Shown piece after piece: positions 51,852-62,716 of a stretch of DNA of 64,000 nucleotides. Source of the DNA: Mesorhizobium sp. AR02 (GTDB taxonomy: Bacteria > Pseudomonadota > Alphaproteobacteria > Rhizobiales > Rhizobiaceae); contig NZ_CP080531.1 in assembly GCF_024746835.1 (NCBI RefSeq), positions 1 to 64,000 on the forward strand, read 5' to 3'. Within the stretch, counting starts at the first letter, position 1. Every line of letters starts with the position of its first letter. Both the position numbers and the translations under genes were made by a program. Below the pieces are notes generated by a model. The model saw nothing but the letters and a program-made list of their open reading frames with translations, had not been told where the DNA came from and searched no databases.

Positions 51852-51954
51852 TTTTCTCTTCAAGTCTCTATAGGTCTCAACTTTAGCTTAATCAGTCTTG
51901 GACAGTCTGACCAGCCACAGGGATAGTCGGCCATCCCAACCAAAGGAGACCGAC

Positions 51955-52245
51955 ATGCAGTTCTTTGCCCTTCTCACCCGCAACACCGCAAAGTCCGGAG
52001 ACGCCGACTTTGCACCACTTCTGCCCGGCGAGGCCGAACAGCGGCGCACGCTCTACGCCGAGGGCGCGGTGCGCCAGGTCTGGAACCGTGGCGACATTCC
52101 CGGCAGCGGCATGATGTTCGAGGCATCAGACGACGCCGAGGTGCGCGGCCATCTCGCCACTCTGCCACTGATCAAGGCCGGCATGATGGACATCGCCGCG
52201 ATCGTGCCGCTCAACCCCTACCCCGGTTTTGGGCCGAAGCGCTGA
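51955..52245 (+). CDS. Muconolactone isomerase-like / YCII-like small protein
   Basis: This 96-residue dimeric alpha/beta-barrel protein begins MQFFALLTRN and has the AEQRRTLYAEGAVRQVW segment and an LPLIKAGMMDI block resembling muconolactone-isomerase-like domains. Such proteins are often stand-alone and of unknown activity. AAAGGAGACCGAC precedes the ATG. It is divergent from a LysR gene, which suggests an inducible catabolic or stress function. Confidence 0.75.
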   Translation: MQFFALLTRNTAKSGDADFAPLLPGEAEQRRTLYAEGAVRQVWNRGDIPGSGMMFEASDDAEVRGHLATLPLIKAGMMDIAAIVPLNPYPGFGPKR

Positions 52246-52391: not shown

Positions 52392-53468
52392 GTGGTAGAC
52401 AGAACAGGCGGCGATGCGGATCGCGTTCCACGCGCTTCCGTCGTCATGACCGTCTATACGGACCAGCGCTTTCTCGATGCCGCGGTCAACAGCATCCTGA
52501 CCCAGGAGTTCGACGATTTCGAACTCGTCATTGTCGATGACGGCACGGGCCAGGACGCAGTCTTCCAGGAGCTGGCGCGTCGCGATCCGCGCATCCGGCT
52601 GGTCACCAACCCGACCAATCTCGGCACCGCAGCCGCCGCCAACCGCGGCATCGAGACGGCCCGAGGCGAGATCATCCTGCGCCTCGACGCGGACGATATC
52701 GCCGAGCCTGCGCATGTCGGGCGACTGGTCGCGGCCCTGGACGAGGATAGCGAACTTGGCCTCGTCGGACATGCGGTGACGCTGATCGACGAAGCCGACC
52801 GCGTCGTCGGCGCGCAGCTTATGCCCGAGACGGATCTGGAGATCCGCTGGACGATCCTGTTCCACAATCCCTTCTACCATTCGACGATCGCCTATCGCCG
52901 CGGCTGCTTTGAGGCCGCCGGGCGCTACAGGATCGATGAACTGGTCTCGCAGGACCATTATCTGTGGTTCGACATGCTGCCTTTGTGCCGGGCGCGAAAT
53001 CTTGCCGAGCCGCTGACGCGCTACCGGCTGAACGCACTCGGCCTGACCGCGACAAACGCAACGAATGCCCGCAATCGCACGCATCCGATCCGCCAGGCAT
53101 CATGGGCGCGCCTCGGCCTGACCTATGACCTTTATGACGACGCCTTCGCCCAGGACCTGACCCAGTTCATCCGCGGGCACGTGATTGCCGTCGACCGACG
53201 CGCCGCCGCCTACGGCAAGTTGCTTGGCGTGCTCAACGCCTTCCTCGCAGCGTCACGGCCCTGCCGGCGCACGGAGGATGCGGTTGCGGCAAGGCAGCTG
53301 GCCCATGGCATCGTCGCGCGCATGCTCGCCAGCCCGCCGCCGGGTCTCACGGAGATGCTGCGCGTCTGCTATCTGTGCTGGCCGCTCGACTGGCGAACCG
53401 TAACCGGCGCGGTGACAAAGCGGCTGGCGATTGGGCTCAAGGCGTGGTTGCCCAAAACAGGCAGCTGA
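52392..53468 (+). CDS. Glycosyltransferase family 2 protein
   Basis: This 358-residue protein has an inverting GT-A domain (about 15-230) with SVVMTVYTDQRFL, VIVDDGTG, a LRLDADDIAEP DXD-type metal motif (about 97) and YHSTIAYRRGCFE. The C-terminal 120 residues are helical. It starts with GTG after a GGGGGAT sequence. The next gene also carries sugar-transfer and methyltransferase domains, so the two probably build or modify a surface polysaccharide. Donor and acceptor are unknown. Confidence 0.86.
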   Translation: MVDRTGGDADRVPRASVVMTVYTDQRFLDAAVNSILTQEFDDFELVIVDDGTGQDAVFQELARRDPRIRLVTNPTNLGTAAAANRGIETARGEIILRLDADDIAEPAHVGRLVAALDEDSELGLVGHAVTLIDEADRVVGAQLMPETDLEIRWTILFHNPFYHSTIAYRRGCFEAAGRYRIDELVSQDHYLWFDMLPLCRARNLAEPLTRYRLNALGLTATNATNARNRTHPIRQASWARLGLTYDLYDDAFAQDLTQFIRGHVIAVDRRAAAYGKLLGVLNAFLAASRPCRRTEDAVAARQLAHGIVARMLASPPPGLTEMLRVCYLCWPLDWRTVTGAVTKRLAIGLKAWLPKTGS

Positions 53469-53549: not shown

Positions 53550-55142
53550 ATGAACCCTGATTATTCTGCCTGGTTTGCAGGCAAGAGCCTTTCGACCGAC
53601 TGGACCTCGCGCTTCTTTCCCCTCTGGGCCACACTGCTCCAGTCGCGCCGCGATGAGGCCCTCGATGTTCTGGAGATCGGCTCCTGGGAGGGCCGGTCGG
53701 CGATCTTCTTTCTCAACTATTTCGGCAAATGCCGGCTGACATGCATCGATACATTCGGCGGCAGTCCCGAACACACCCTGCGCCACAAATGGAGCGACCA
53801 GCTTGCGCATGTCGAGCAACGCTTCGACAGCAACCTGGCCGCGTTCGGCGAACGGGTCGAGAAGATCAAAAGTCCCTCGTCCCAGGCATTGGCCCGGCTT
53901 ATCACCGACGAGCGACGTTTCGACCTCATCTATGTCGACGGCAGCCATCACAGCGCCGATGTCCAGGCGGATGCCGTGTTCTCCTGGCAGATGGTGCGGG
54001 ACGGCGGGATTGTCATTTTCGACGATTACGAATGGACTTTCTTTGCCGACGAGGTCGAGCGTCCAAAACTCGGGATCGACAGTTTCCTGTCGGTGCAATC
54101 AGGCCAATACCGCGAGCTGTACCGAGGAGAACAGGTCATCATCCAGAAGATCGGCGTCGCCAGGAACGAGCGCTCGGCAATTTCTTCTCGGCCGCCTCCT
54201 GTCCCGCGGGAAGAACCCGTCGACAAACCCAAAGCCGATGGATCCGAAAACGACGTCGAGTTTGTGCTGATCGCCGAGGCGGGCATTCTCGAAGCACAGG
54301 CCCTGCTGCTGTGCGAAAGCATAAGGTGTTTCGCCGGCTCTTATTCACGATCCCGGATAACGGCGGTTTCGCCCAGAAGCAGCCGTCGCCCTTCGCCGTC
54401 GACGATAGACCGGTTCGAGCAACTGGGTGTGGACTATCTGCCAATCGAAATCGACAGCCGCTGCCCGCAATATGGCCCCTCATACCGGGTACATTCGCTT
54501 GCTCATGTCGAAAGACGGACCGGGCCGCCGGTCATCATCATGCTTGATAGCGACGCGATATTCATCGCCGAGCCCGACTTTTCGTTGGGCACATGCTCCG
54601 CCGCTGCCCGACCGGTGGACAGCAAGGGGATGTGCACGACAGGCCCTGGCGACCCGTTCGACGCCTACTGGCGACAGCTATGCGTCCTTGCCGGTGTCGA
54701 CTACGAGCACCTGCCGATCGTGCGCACGAGCGTCGACGGCCTGGCTGTGCGCGCCAGCTACAATGGCGGGCTCATCGCCGCAAAAAGGGCGAGCGGCCTG
54801 TTTCAGCGCACCGAAGATATTTTCAGGAAGCTGGTGGCCGCCAATATGAAACCATGGGCCGGCGCCGAGCCAACCTACGGCACCGGGACCGGCATCCTGC
54901 AGGGGAAGCCACGGCCTTCTGGGGCACGAGCCAGGCTGCCTTCTCACTGGCGGCCACCGCCGGCAACCATTCCGTCAGGCTTTTGCCGGCCACGCATAAT
55001 TTTCCGCTTCACAACTTCAACCCGGCCACCGCACCTGAGCCGGCCCGGCTGGTTCATATTCACTATCATGGACTGTTCAACGAGGGTTCGGCGGCCGCGA
55101 ACCCGATGCTGGACGGAACGCTGGCGCTGCCTGCGGGAATAG
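53550..55142 (+). CDS. SAM methyltransferase + glycosyltransferase-like protein, frameshifted 3' end
   Basis: As read, the frame gives 530 residues. Residues about 1-200 are a class I methyltransferase (LEIGSWEGRSAIFFLN, DLIYVDGSHHSADVQ, IVIFDDYEW). Residues about 225-450 form a GT-A-like domain with the DXD-type motif MLDSDAIFIAEPDF. Family-like sequence stops at the G4 run 54902-54905; the remaining roughly 80 residues (Pro/Arg-rich) look like out-of-frame translation. The true continuation is in the -1 frame and leads into the sulfotransferase (55199-56245). A start at GTG 53541 would add three residues. Confidence 0.72.
   Translation: MNPDYSAWFAGKSLSTDWTSRFFPLWATLLQSRRDEALDVLEIGSWEGRSAIFFLNYFGKCRLTCIDTFGGSPEHTLRHKWSDQLAHVEQRFDSNLAAFGERVEKIKSPSSQALARLITDERRFDLIYVDGSHHSADVQADAVFSWQMVRDGGIVIFDDYEWTFFADEVERPKLGIDSFLSVQSGQYRELYRGEQVIIQKIGVARNERSAISSRPPPVPREEPVDKPKADGSENDVEFVLIAEAGILEAQALLLCESIRCFAGSYSRSRITAVSPRSSRRPSPSTIDRFEQLGVDYLPIEIDSRCPQYGPSYRVHSLAHVERRTGPPVIIMLDSDAIFIAEPDFSLGTCSAAARPVDSKGMCTTGPGDPFDAYWRQLCVLAGVDYEHLPIVRTSVDGLAVRASYNGGLIAAKRASGLFQRTEDIFRKLVAANMKPWAGAEPTYGTGTGILQGKPRPSGARARLPSHWRPPPATIPSGFCRPRIIFRFTTSTRPPHLSRPGWFIFTIMDCSTRVRRPRTRCWTERWRCLRE
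54902..54905 (+). other. Frameshift site (G4 run) splitting a three-domain gene
   Basis: Before this run the protein reads ...GTGTGILQG in the upstream frame; after it, the good sequence continues GEATAFWGTSQAAF in the -1 frame. A fifth G would fuse both into one frame with no stop, giving 898 residues from 53550 to 56245. This may be a single-base deletion, phase variation or a sequencing error in a homopolymer. Confidence 0.8.
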
Positions 55143-55198
55143 CCGAATGGCTCGAAGCCCGGCTGCCGTTGCGGCAAGAGCCGCCGCCGGCCGCGCTG

Positions 55199-56245
55199 AT
55201 GCCGGACCGCCCGCGCCATTCCCAGAGACAAGCAATCCTCGTGCTTGGGATGCATCGGAGCGGGACCTCGATGCTTGCCGGCACCATCGCCGCATTGGGA
55301 TCGGCCCCTCCCAAAAAACCATTACGCGCCGACGGCAACAATCCCAGGGGAGATTGGGAAAGCACCCCGCTCAATTTCGCCAACGACGAACTGCTCGCAG
55401 CGGCAGCCTCCTCGTGGCATGACTGGCGGCCGCTCAATCCGCAATGGCTGCAATCGCCGGCGGCAGAGCGTCACCGCCACAAGATCAAGGCGATCCTGGC
55501 AAGCGAGTACGGCGACGAACCACTGTTTTTCGTCAAGGATCCCCGGATCTGCCGGTTCGTTCCGTTCATGTCGTCGATCCTTGCCGAAATGGAGGTCGAC
55601 CCGGTGGCTCTGCTTCCGCTACGCAACCCCCTCGAGGTCGCCTGCTCGCTGGAGCGGCGGGATGGATTGCCGCTGGCAAAATCCCTTTTGCTCTGGCTGA
55701 GGCACGTACTCGATGCTGAATTTCATTCGCGCCACATGCCACGTCATTTCATGCGCCACGAACAATTCCTGATCGACTGGCGACATCATGTCGAGCGCGC
55801 GGCGGAGAAGACCGGCATCGTCTGGCCGATCCGCTCCGACCAGGCAGAGACCGAAATACGGCGCTTCCTGACAGCGGACCTGCATCATGAACGGGCAACG
55901 GCCGAGGAATTGCAGAACCATCCGGATGCAACACCGCTGATCCGCACCGCCTACGACATTCTATGTGCCATGGCAGACGACGGCGACAGCCAGAAATTGC
56001 GCGATGAGCTGGACCTGACGCGGGCGAAATTCGATGAAAGCTGCGACATCTTGGGCGCTGCTGCGGCAGCCGAGCGCGACACAATCAGCCGCGCCTATCA
56101 TGAGCTCGGCCTCGAACGGAACGCACTGGTGCATGATCGAGACAATCGCGTCGCCGAGCGCACCGCACTGCTCGCGTCACCCAGTTGGCGACGACTGACA
56201 GCCCCGTTGCGGTGGATGCGAAGTCCATCCAAGCGTCGAAGATGA
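55199..56245 (+). CDS. Sulfotransferase-domain protein (3' part of the frameshifted gene)
   Basis: The frame is open from before 54905 and carries the C-terminal end of the glycosyltransferase-like domain (VHIHYHGLFNEG). Next comes a sulfotransferase domain with the 5'-phosphosulfate P-loop LGMHRSGTSML (about 15 residues after the ATG at 55199), FFVKDPRICRF (3'-phosphate region) and LLPLRNPLEVACSL. A helical tail follows. PAPS-dependent sulfation of a sugar is the family role. ATG 55199 gives a minimal 348-residue protein; translation may instead depend on the upstream gene being in frame. Confidence 0.75.
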   Translation: MPDRPRHSQRQAILVLGMHRSGTSMLAGTIAALGSAPPKKPLRADGNNPRGDWESTPLNFANDELLAAAASSWHDWRPLNPQWLQSPAAERHRHKIKAILASEYGDEPLFFVKDPRICRFVPFMSSILAEMEVDPVALLPLRNPLEVACSLERRDGLPLAKSLLLWLRHVLDAEFHSRHMPRHFMRHEQFLIDWRHHVERAAEKTGIVWPIRSDQAETEIRRFLTADLHHERATAEELQNHPDATPLIRTAYDILCAMADDGDSQKLRDELDLTRAKFDESCDILGAAAAAERDTISRAYHELGLERNALVHDRDNRVAERTALLASPSWRRLTAPLRWMRSPSKRRR

Positions 56246-56396
56246 CAGCGGCTGGTGCGTCGAGGCCCTCTCTGCTCGACACACTGTGATCGGCTGTCAA
56301 GAAACCGTCACACGGAACCGGGTTCGCGCGTGCTAGAAATTGCGGTTAGGTGCTGCTGTGCGGCGCTGCGTTCGAAACCTGCATCTGGCACTGCCC

Positions 56397-57395
56397 ATGG
56401 ATACCGCCCTCGCCCCGGAAGGCACCGACCTGTCGCCTTACCTGCCCGATGAGCACGGGCTGTTCTTCATCTATCATTTCACCGCTGAAGGCGTGCGGAC
56501 CAAGGACGCCAGCGCCGCGCGCTGGACATGGCGCAGCTACCAGATCACCGATCTGCAAGCCCGCCAGGAAATCGCCGCCGAGAAGGCTCTACCGGCCCCG
56601 GCGCGCGATGCTTTCCTCGCGCCCAGCCATGGCTGCCACATCGACTACGAGGATGACTGGCTGTTTGGCGACCTGCCGGACCTCAGGCACGATTTTTCAG
56701 AGGCGCGCGGACTCGTCCATTTCCGCTTCGCCTTCAACGACACGATGCTGATCGGCGCCCGCAAGCAGCCTCTGGAGTCGGTCGACGCGGTCCGCAAGGC
56801 GGTGGAGAATGGATCGCGGAAATTCCGCTCGCCAGCGGAACTGATCGAGGCGGTCATGGGTCAGTCGCTCGACGGCATGTCGGGCGAGCTTGGCAAACTC
56901 GGCGGCGCGCTCGACGGCATCGAGGATCGCGTCGTGCGCGATGCGTGGCACAATGAACGCCAATCGCTGGTCGAGGCGCGCCGGCAGCTGGTGGTGATCC
57001 ATCGGCAGATGGCGACGCTCACCAACCTGTTTCGCCATCTCGACCATTCGCATCGCGACGAGCTGCCCGACCTGATCAACGACATGGCGGCCCGGCTCTC
57101 ACACCGGGCGCTCACCCTCTACAATGACGGCGAGCAGTTGCAGGCGCGCACCCGGCTGTTGCAGGACGAATTGATGGCCAAGCTGACCATGCAGTCGAAC
57201 CAGCTCCTCTATGTTCTCTCCGTCATGACGGCAGTGCTGCTGCCGATGACCATCATCTCGGGCCTGTTCGGCATGAATGTCGGCGGGCTGCCGCTGGTCG
57301 ATACACCAGCGGGGTTCTGGGTGGTGACGGCTGTGTCGGTGGTTATCGCTTTGGCCACCTACCTGTTCGTCAGGCGGCTCGGCCGCGGGTTGTAG
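56397..57395 (+). CDS. CorA-family zinc transporter ZntB-like
   Basis: This 332-residue protein has a large cytoplasmic N-terminal domain (about 1-265, helical) and two C-terminal membrane helices with the CorA-family GMN motif (GLFGMNVGGLP, about 287). Weak sequence detail favours ZntB (metal:proton symport) over magnesium CorA, but this is not certain. The ATG at 56397 has only a weak ribosome binding site; a TTG upstream gives a longer frame. Its 3' end overlaps the convergent rarD gene by 26 bases. Confidence 0.83.
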   Translation: MDTALAPEGTDLSPYLPDEHGLFFIYHFTAEGVRTKDASAARWTWRSYQITDLQARQEIAAEKALPAPARDAFLAPSHGCHIDYEDDWLFGDLPDLRHDFSEARGLVHFRFAFNDTMLIGARKQPLESVDAVRKAVENGSRKFRSPAELIEAVMGQSLDGMSGELGKLGGALDGIEDRVVRDAWHNERQSLVEARRQLVVIHRQMATLTNLFRHLDHSHRDELPDLINDMAARLSHRALTLYNDGEQLQARTRLLQDELMAKLTMQSNQLLYVLSVMTAVLLPMTIISGLFGMNVGGLPLVDTPAGFWVVTAVSVVIALATYLFVRRLGRGL

Positions 57396-58388: not shown

Positions 58389-61427
<3,039 letters not shown>

Positions 61428-61431
<4 letters not shown>

Positions 61432-61919
61432 GGTCTTTCCTCCGGCGGCCATTGGTCGGTGTCGTGATCGGGATGCTGGTAGGAGACAAGCTCGGCGAGA
61501 TAGGGGGCCGAGCCCATATCCGCCATCGTATCCTCGCCCGGCAATTGCGGAATGGTGTCGACATAAGGCAGTTTTGCCTCCGTGCCCCATTGGATGGTCG
61601 GTACGATATCAGCCGGATCGTCGAAGGCGGCTATCGCCAGCGCCATGCCGTCGGGCGCCTCGAAGGTCAGCGGCGTGCCGCATTCGGCGCAGAAGCCGCG
61701 CCAGGCGGCATTGGAGGAACGGAAGCGCTTGGGTTCGCCGCGTGTCCACTCGACCTTGGCGCCGCGCACCGAGACCAGCGGCAGGTAGAAATTGCCGCTC
61801 GCCTTCTGGCACATGCGGCAGTGGCAGACCGACGCGTCGCCAAGCGTGCCCTCGACACGGAAGCGCACCGCCCCGCACTGGCAGCCGCCCGTGTAGACTG
61901 GCCGGTTGTCGAGGCTCAT
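61428..61919 (-). CDS. GFA family protein (first of a tandem pair)
   Basis: This 163-residue protein has GFA-family zinc motifs GGCQCGAVRF, CHCRMCQK and FCAECGTPL in the same order and spacing as the downstream paralogue. It overlaps that gene by four bases (ATGA). The C-terminal segment ends SYQHPDHDTDQWPPE, paralleling [14 protein letters not shown] of its neighbour. Activity on S-hydroxymethylglutathione is possible but not shown. Confidence 0.88.
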
Positions 61920-61925
61920 CGCGTC

Positions 61926-62312
61926 TCACTCCGGATCATGGCAGACAGCCTCGACATTGTTGCCGTCGGGATCGAAGACGAAGGCGCCGTAGTAGTTCGG
62001 GTGGTAGTGCGGACGGAGCCCCGGCCCGCCATTGTCCTTGCCGCCGGCGGCAAGCGCCGCGGCATGGAAGGCATCGACCTCGGCGCGGCTGCGCGCGGTG
62101 AAGGCGACGTGCTGATGGGCCTTCTGACCGTCCTTGCCTTCCTGCAGCCAGAACACCGGCCGATCGCGGCCATAGCCACCGACCTTTTCACCGCCGGTGT
62201 ATTCAAGCGGCACCATATACAGCAGCGAGGCACCAAGCGGCGCCATCGCCTTGTCGTAAAAGGCCTTCGAAGCCTCGAAATCGGCAACGTCGATGCCGAG
62301 ATGGTCGATCAT
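61926..62312 (-). CDS. VOC family (glyoxalase-like) protein
   Basis: This 128-residue metalloenzyme-fold protein starts MIDHLGIDVADFEASKAFYDKAM, with the His of the VOC metal site near the N terminus. Later HHQVAF-like (HQHVAFTARS) and GRDRPVFWL segments also fit. Many such proteins are of unknown activity. It sits six bases upstream of the first GFA gene. Its own start overlaps the end of the DUF559 gene by four bases, so all six genes from here to cimA may form one chain. Confidence 0.87.
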   Translation of the reverse strand: MIDHLGIDVADFEASKAFYDKAMAPLGASLLYMVPLEYTGGEKVGGYGRDRPVFWLQEGKDGQKAHQHVAFTARSRAEVDAFHAAALAAGGKDNGGPGLRPHYHPNYYGAFVFDPDGNNVEAVCHDPE

Positions 62313-62716
62313 GGAAATGCCTCCCTTGCTGGTTCGTGTGCTGGCACTTCGGCACCGGTCAAACCGGCTGCGATCACGATGTGCTGGCAGACATTGTCGA
62401 TATCGCGAACAACGTCGTCGTTCCAGAAGCGCAGGATGGTCCAGCCCAGCGCTTCGAGCCTGGCTGTTCGCGCAGCATCAGACGCCGAAACCTCATGAGA
62501 AGCGTGCTGGGAACCATCCAGCTCAACGATCAGCTTCTTGTTGGGGCAAGCAAAATCGACGATGTAGCCAGCTATCGGCATTTGACGTCGAAACGCCAGC
62601 CCCATGAGTCGGTGTGCACGTATCTCATTCCAAAGCTTCAGTTCAGCGTCGGTCATGCCCTTGCGCATCTTGCGTGCATTGCCGCAATTGACGGGAGATA
62701 CGCGATAATGGGTCAT
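62309..62716 (-). CDS. DUF559 domain (Vsr-like fold) endonuclease family protein
   Basis: This 135-residue protein contains ELKLWNEIRAHRLMGLAFRRQ and IVDFACPNKKLIVELDGSQH (quoted in part), the DUF559 hallmark. The Asp, Glu and Asp-Gly-Ser-x-His positions match the restriction-endonuclease-like core of Vsr-type enzymes. It is a small protein often found singly in rhizobial genomes; biological role is unknown. It overlaps the downstream VOC gene by four bases and is preceded by an inverted pair of repeat elements. Confidence 0.85.
   Translation of the reverse strand: MTHYRVSPVNCGNARKMRKGMTDAELKLWNEIRAHRLMGLAFRRQMPIAGYIVDFACPNKKLIVELDGSQHASHEVSASDAARTARLEALGWTILRFWNDDVVRDIDNVCQHIVIAAGLTGAEVPAHEPAREAFP

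Follow-up and report, generated by a model that had tools for sequence, protein, structure and literature searches.

Organization of the locus

The window analyzed here, meaning the whole stretch of DNA under study, consists of the first 64,000 bases of the 7,468,087-bp contig C2 in an 8.91-Mb genome labelled G000. On its plus strand lies a two-gene cassette, made up of a GT2 glycosyltransferase gene and a gene that joins methyltransferase, glycosyltransferase-like, and sulfotransferase-like parts, flanked by a YciI-like gene and by corA. The left border is the gene at 51898..52245, which we take to be YciI-like and which matches Pfam MIase with 27.8 bits (cut-off, 26.7). The GT2 gene at 52392..53468 (Pfam Glycos_transf_2, 94.2 bits; cut-off, 23.3) directly precedes the broken gene that is the subject of this report. 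Its upstream piece (53550..54902) holds the methyltransferase domain and the first part of a middle, glycosyltransferase-like module, and its downstream piece, in the -1 frame (54905..56245), comprises the remaining part of the middle module (up to about 55190), a sulfotransferase-like module, a coiled coil, and a C-terminal tail. The family sequence leaves the first frame at a GGGG run (54902..54905), past which that frame continues as a stop-terminated, out-of-register tail (54903..55142). The corA gene (56340..57395; Pfam CorA, 164 bits) lies outside the cassette and serves as the conserved neighbor that marks the locus. Two named species, Mesorhizobium huakuii and M. carmichaelinearum, have related loci.

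One predicted gene in two frames

The first frame opens with the ATG at 53550, has its last family codon at 54900-54902, and then reads through 79 out-of-register codons to a stop at 55140-55142. The remaining family sequence stands in the -1 frame, where the first stop comes only at 56243-56245. The pieces measure 451 and 446 codons, which together with the codon at the break give the 898-codon restored frame proposed in the initial annotation. When the pieces were used as separate queries in protein searches, both matched P0003 over their whole length, the upstream piece with 97% identity (E = 0) and the downstream piece with 88% identity (E = 1.4e-260). Seven public proteins of 886-905 aa (P0003-P0008 and P0010) cover 99-100% of each piece; P0125 (947 aa), which was above the length limit of the upstream-piece search, covers the downstream piece and also has a methyltransferase domain. 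Because separately searched pieces match the same full-length proteins, the case for a break is far beyond chance.

Among 146 genomes of the genus, the downstream piece was matched in 53 and the upstream piece in 38, many of these matches being to single modules only. Both pieces stand in one open frame in nine other genomes (G007, G017, G025, G026, G119, G095, G021, G015, and G125), and the middle module runs in one open frame across the break point in three further ones (G044, G045, and G049); thus the point is unbroken in every one of the 12 other genomes with matches to its left and right. The G007 locus, which also has corA as a neighbor, is 96% and 91% identical to the upstream and downstream pieces, and its gene is one open frame of 905 codons. 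P0005 of M. huakuii (902 aa), annotated as a class I SAM-dependent methyltransferase, covers both pieces fully, with 90% identity to the upstream one and 81% to the downstream one, and, unlike the window gene, is an unbroken single frame. We also looked for homologs encoded as two independent genes, an arrangement that would have spoken for separate origins of the two frames; the relatives turned out to be single-frame proteins. Since the break cuts through a module that elsewhere forms a whole protein by itself (about 316 aa; 35 aligned sequences), the pieces constitute one predicted gene in two frames, not two separate genes. A search of G000 returned one match to the downstream piece and no near-identical second copy of it, and the upstream piece has one distant partner in that genome, 42% identical over the methyltransferase part.

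Nine sister sequences were aligned at the G run. The nearest two, G007 and G017, are one base longer than the window at this site, in line with the original proposal of one gene broken by a single base at a run of four Gs, and they carry one more difference just after the run, which in the family frame would be a synonymous change. In the remaining seven, the site holds three or fewer consecutive Gs, and none of the nine needs a frame change there. Thus, neither a conserved frame change nor a long repeat tract is kept in the relatives. The site is unexceptional, because the gene contains 24 runs of at least four bases, of which this is one and of which A6 at 55313 is longer.

Domain content and probable function

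The N terminus of the upstream frame matches Methyltransf_24 (PF13578) with 72.4 bits against a Pfam cut-off of 26.3, which bears out the methyltransferase part of the gene as first described. The sulfotransferase P-loop in the same description was also recovered: the motif LGMHRSGTS, near 55244-55270 inside the sulfotransferase-like module, is invariant in all 18 relatives of alignment A2. A P-loop-like PAPS-binding motif is a hallmark of sulfotransferases. The window's second frame gave no match to Sulfotransfer_3 (PF13469) at an E value of 0.1, and when six relatives were scanned with that model, four scored under its cut-off of 27 (13.2, 16, 17.2, and 25.6 bits) and two were unmatched, one of which is without the sulfotransferase-like module. 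By eye, the window reads NPRGDWES at a place where the 18 rows of A2 carry Y, H, or F in the position of the D.

The middle module corresponds to 54243-55190 of the window and belongs to a family of about 316 aa whose members either stand by themselves or are combined with a methyltransferase, GT2, or sulfotransferase part. Alignment A1 comprises 35 stand-alone members, taken from the 120 proteins listed as matches to the upstream piece; the closer ones are 65-72% identical to the middle module of the window and consist of this single module. A DSD motif, which in the window lies 5' of the break, is invariant in 35 of 35, and a DxD motif is a trait of GT-A glycosyltransferases. Searches of the middle module found no PDB sequence match, no NCBIfam match (one member scanned), and no glycosyltransferase family among the Pfam matches of the 35 members, which were stray matches only. 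We infer that the module is GT-A-like because the DSD is invariant and a GT2 enzyme is either its neighbor or fused to it. The GT-A-like domain of the initial annotation therefore stands as a likeness in motif and context, and the domain databases did not return a convincing match for it.

The gene is thus predicted to encode a multipart enzyme composed of a class I SAM methyltransferase, a glycosyltransferase-like middle, a sulfotransferase-like module, a coiled coil, and a C-terminal tail. In the simplest reading, such an enzyme probably acts on the sugars of a surface glycan, by adding, methylating, and sulfating them, a role suggested by its domains and by its neighbors, namely, the adjoining GT2 gene and, in G045 and G049, the fusion of GT2 with the middle module. 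Sulfated surface polysaccharides are known from Mesorhizobium. In the portions of the literature available, no such protein is named, and a search with combined terms gave none.

An accessory cassette

The corA gene is matched in 143 of the 146 genomes, and we surveyed the best 30 of these 143 loci over about 1.5 kb upstream. Six of the 30 (G000, G007, G119, G026, G025, and G021) carry the end of the trimodular gene, two (G045 and G049) carry a version in which GT2 is fused to the middle module, and one (G116) carries a scar. In the remaining 21, only the corA leader is found and the cassette is absent within 1.5 kb upstream; a YciI-like gene lies upstream of corA in 15 of these cassette-free loci.

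The scar in G116 (stretch L186, 1022-1470) adjoins corA and consists of the first part of the GT2 gene, a piece from near the GT2 end, and the extreme end of the trimodular gene. It matches the window up to 52495, then at 53310-53383, and then from 56210 onward, a pattern that reads as two internal deletions, which together took out the bulk of the cassette and spared its two ends. In the search of the 146 genomes, neither piece was matched elsewhere in G116. A midpoint-rooted tree of corA DNA from the 30 loci places G116 beside G000 and G007, with G119 outside (support, 100/98, 97/90, and 95/81). Judged by these sequences, the cassette has evidently been lost at least once among the closest relatives of the strain. 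The cassette is dispensable, and because at least one close relative has lost it, a real loss-of-function mutation in G000 is plausible, if unproven.

Age of the break

If the gene had been broken for long, the downstream piece might be expected to decay. The -1 frame has no second lesion in the form of a stop up to 56243-56245, which agrees with the original remark that the open second frame makes the break recent or an error. With the pieces analyzed apart, dN/dS between G000 and G007 is 0.116 upstream and 0.206 downstream. For the downstream piece, the G000-G025 value of 0.248 compares with 0.211 and 0.220 in the intact pairs G007-G025 and G026-G119, a slight, nominal excess. G000 deviates at none of the 133 upstream and none of the 91 downstream columns that are invariant in the other rows, and its private changes (nonsynonymous/synonymous) number 3/4 upstream and 2/8 downstream, compared with 0/2 and 3/9 for G007; P0005, P0008, and P0125 were left out of these last two counts, as was G017 for the downstream part. 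By dN/dS, invariant columns, and private changes in the aligned relatives, there is no clear sign of relaxed selection downstream, although so short a G000 branch gives the test little power. With invariant columns unchanged and no clear downstream decay, we conclude that the apparent break is either recent or absent from the organism itself.

Frameshifts in the assemblies

The break is known from the assembly of one strain, and the cleanliness of that assembly bears on its meaning. In a strict census, queries had to be intact in both third genomes and both parts of a broken match had to be at least 40 aa long and at least 80% identical; the broken gene itself was omitted by this rule, since G017 is broken there. 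Intact queries, partial or absent ones, and clean frameshift places numbered 175, 10, and 2 in G000; 168, 14, and 0 in G025; 167, 19, and 18 in G017; and 168, 32, and 1 in G026. A three-genome census of G000, G025, and G026 found frameshifts in G000 for 2 of 213 queries taken from G026 and for 4 of 200 taken from G025, the latter four being the broken gene and three weak or shadow-ORF-like cases; the corresponding counts were 1 of 199 and 2 of 210 in G025 and 2 of 279 and 1 of 272 in G026, and many G026 queries were scored as absent because only 400 kb of G026 was compared. Pairwise comparison over 800 kb with no third genome scored 15 cases in G000 among 574 queries from G025 and 9 cases in G025 among 581 queries from G000, with much noise in both sets, and a looser preliminary census list contained many shadow-ORF artifacts. 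In cleanliness, G000 is comparable to G025 and G026 and unlike G017.

The 18 clean frame breaks of G017 fall within 400 kb (stretches L104-L123), several of them at homopolymers by eye. One further break in G017, near the C terminus of its own copy of the gene studied here, was considered as a parallel loss; given the 18 clean frameshift places, this idea was dropped, and the break is most likely assembly noise. Gene breaks in the G017 assembly are unsafe to interpret as biology without reads. Outside the window, at about C2:120,019 (L069), G000 has a second fresh single-base frame break. The gene affected is conserved, encodes about 650 aa, and is unbroken in G017, G025, and G026; by eye it is presumably an acyl-CoA carboxylase alpha subunit with a biotin part.

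Origin of the frame break

The explanation we judge slightly more likely than not is a recent deletion of a single base from the short G run in an accessory glycan-modifying gene of G000. Real mutation is slightly favored because the density of frameshifts in G000 is close to that of two good sister assemblies. Translation would then yield the methyltransferase, a truncated middle module, and the 79-codon out-of-register tail ending at 55142; the sulfotransferase part would not be made in a useful amount, and the middle and sulfotransferase functions, and with them the combined function, would most likely be lost. A serious competitor, to which we give appreciable but lesser weight, is that the strain is intact and the consensus dropped one base of a G homopolymer in sequencing or assembly. 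G runs are usual sites of sequencing errors, all sequence 3' of the break is conserved as in intact sisters, and the pattern exists in the sister assembly G017. Long-read errors are known to break genes, and in one report correction lowered pseudogene rates from 23.3% to 5.6% (PMC12007338). Error stays quite possible because G000 itself has the further fresh break at C2:120,019, where the gene hit is also well conserved; against it, the frameshifts of G000 are few compared with those of G017 and about equal to those of G025 and G026, and in a dispensable cassette a real break is unsurprising.

Mechanisms that would keep the gene in use are far less convincing. Both frames are open between 54593 and 55142, and a one-base backward slip at the run would join them, so some full-length protein could in principle arise there by phase variation or by programmed -1 frameshifting. 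We consider this very improbable, because the run has only four Gs, is one of 24, and is absent from the seven more distant sisters. Slippery sites usually follow the pattern X XXY YYZ, from which the heptamer at the run departs. The phase variation raised in the initial annotation thus finds little footing in a tract so short, which is not even the longest run of the gene. Slightly less credible still is gene fission, with the methyltransferase and a reinitiated sulfotransferase both working as separate proteins: the methyltransferase domain is complete 5' of the break, the matches of the downstream piece include sulfotransferase-like proteins of about 320-430 aa that have none of the other modules, and in-frame ATGs at 55106 and 55199 precede the P-loop, but no ribosome-binding site is evident by eye in the 20 bases before either ATG, and fission would leave the middle module split in two. 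Two independent neighboring genes, as suggested by the gene call for the window sequence, which lists P0009 (388 aa) and P0124 (331 aa), are scarcely believable, and we rejected this reading because single-frame relatives (seven public proteins and nine genomes) span both pieces and the break lies within a stand-alone module. We see no sign of a new mechanism; the break is an ordinary recent single-base loss or an error.

Relation to known systems and wider meaning

A more ambitious interpretation, which we regard as unlikely, is that the interval from the YciI-like gene to corA acts as a hotspot for repeated fusion, splitting, and loss of a modular glycan enzyme (GT2, methyltransferase, the undescribed glycosyltransferase-like module, and sulfotransferase) and that the break is an adaptive step of surface change, for example, toward phages or plant hosts, perhaps leaving a working methyltransferase. 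If that were true, closely related Mesorhizobium strains would differ in sulfation or methylation of a surface glycan. The GT2 fusion of G045 and G049 (compare P0012 of M. sophorae) resembles the window gene in adjoining corA and in sharing the middle module and C-terminal tail; it differs in that GT2 is fused to the middle module and the methyltransferase and sulfotransferase modules are absent. Among rhizobial enzymes, NodH and LpsS are separate, single-function sulfotransferases, and what they would share with the window gene is the presumed kind of reaction (bacterial glycan sulfation).

As a single broken accessory gene, the case serves chiefly to correct the annotation, in which P0009 and P0124 are fragments of the same interrupted gene. 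More broadly, nitrogen-fixing bacteria have a patchily distributed cassette that combines a glycosyltransferase-like module without an assigned family with methyl- and sulfotransferase modules. Should the cassette yield a sulfated or methylated surface glycan, its gain and loss would offer a testable explanation of why related strains differ at the surface.

Elsewhere in the window, two adjoining minus-strand ORFs (60955-61590 and 61428-61919) are alike and both contain the motifs CQCGAVRFR and CHCRMCQK; by eye, we take them to be a tandem pair of GFA-like proteins. A small minus-strand ORF nearby (62309-62716) presumably encodes a DUF559 or Vsr-like endonuclease domain, which it resembles by eye.
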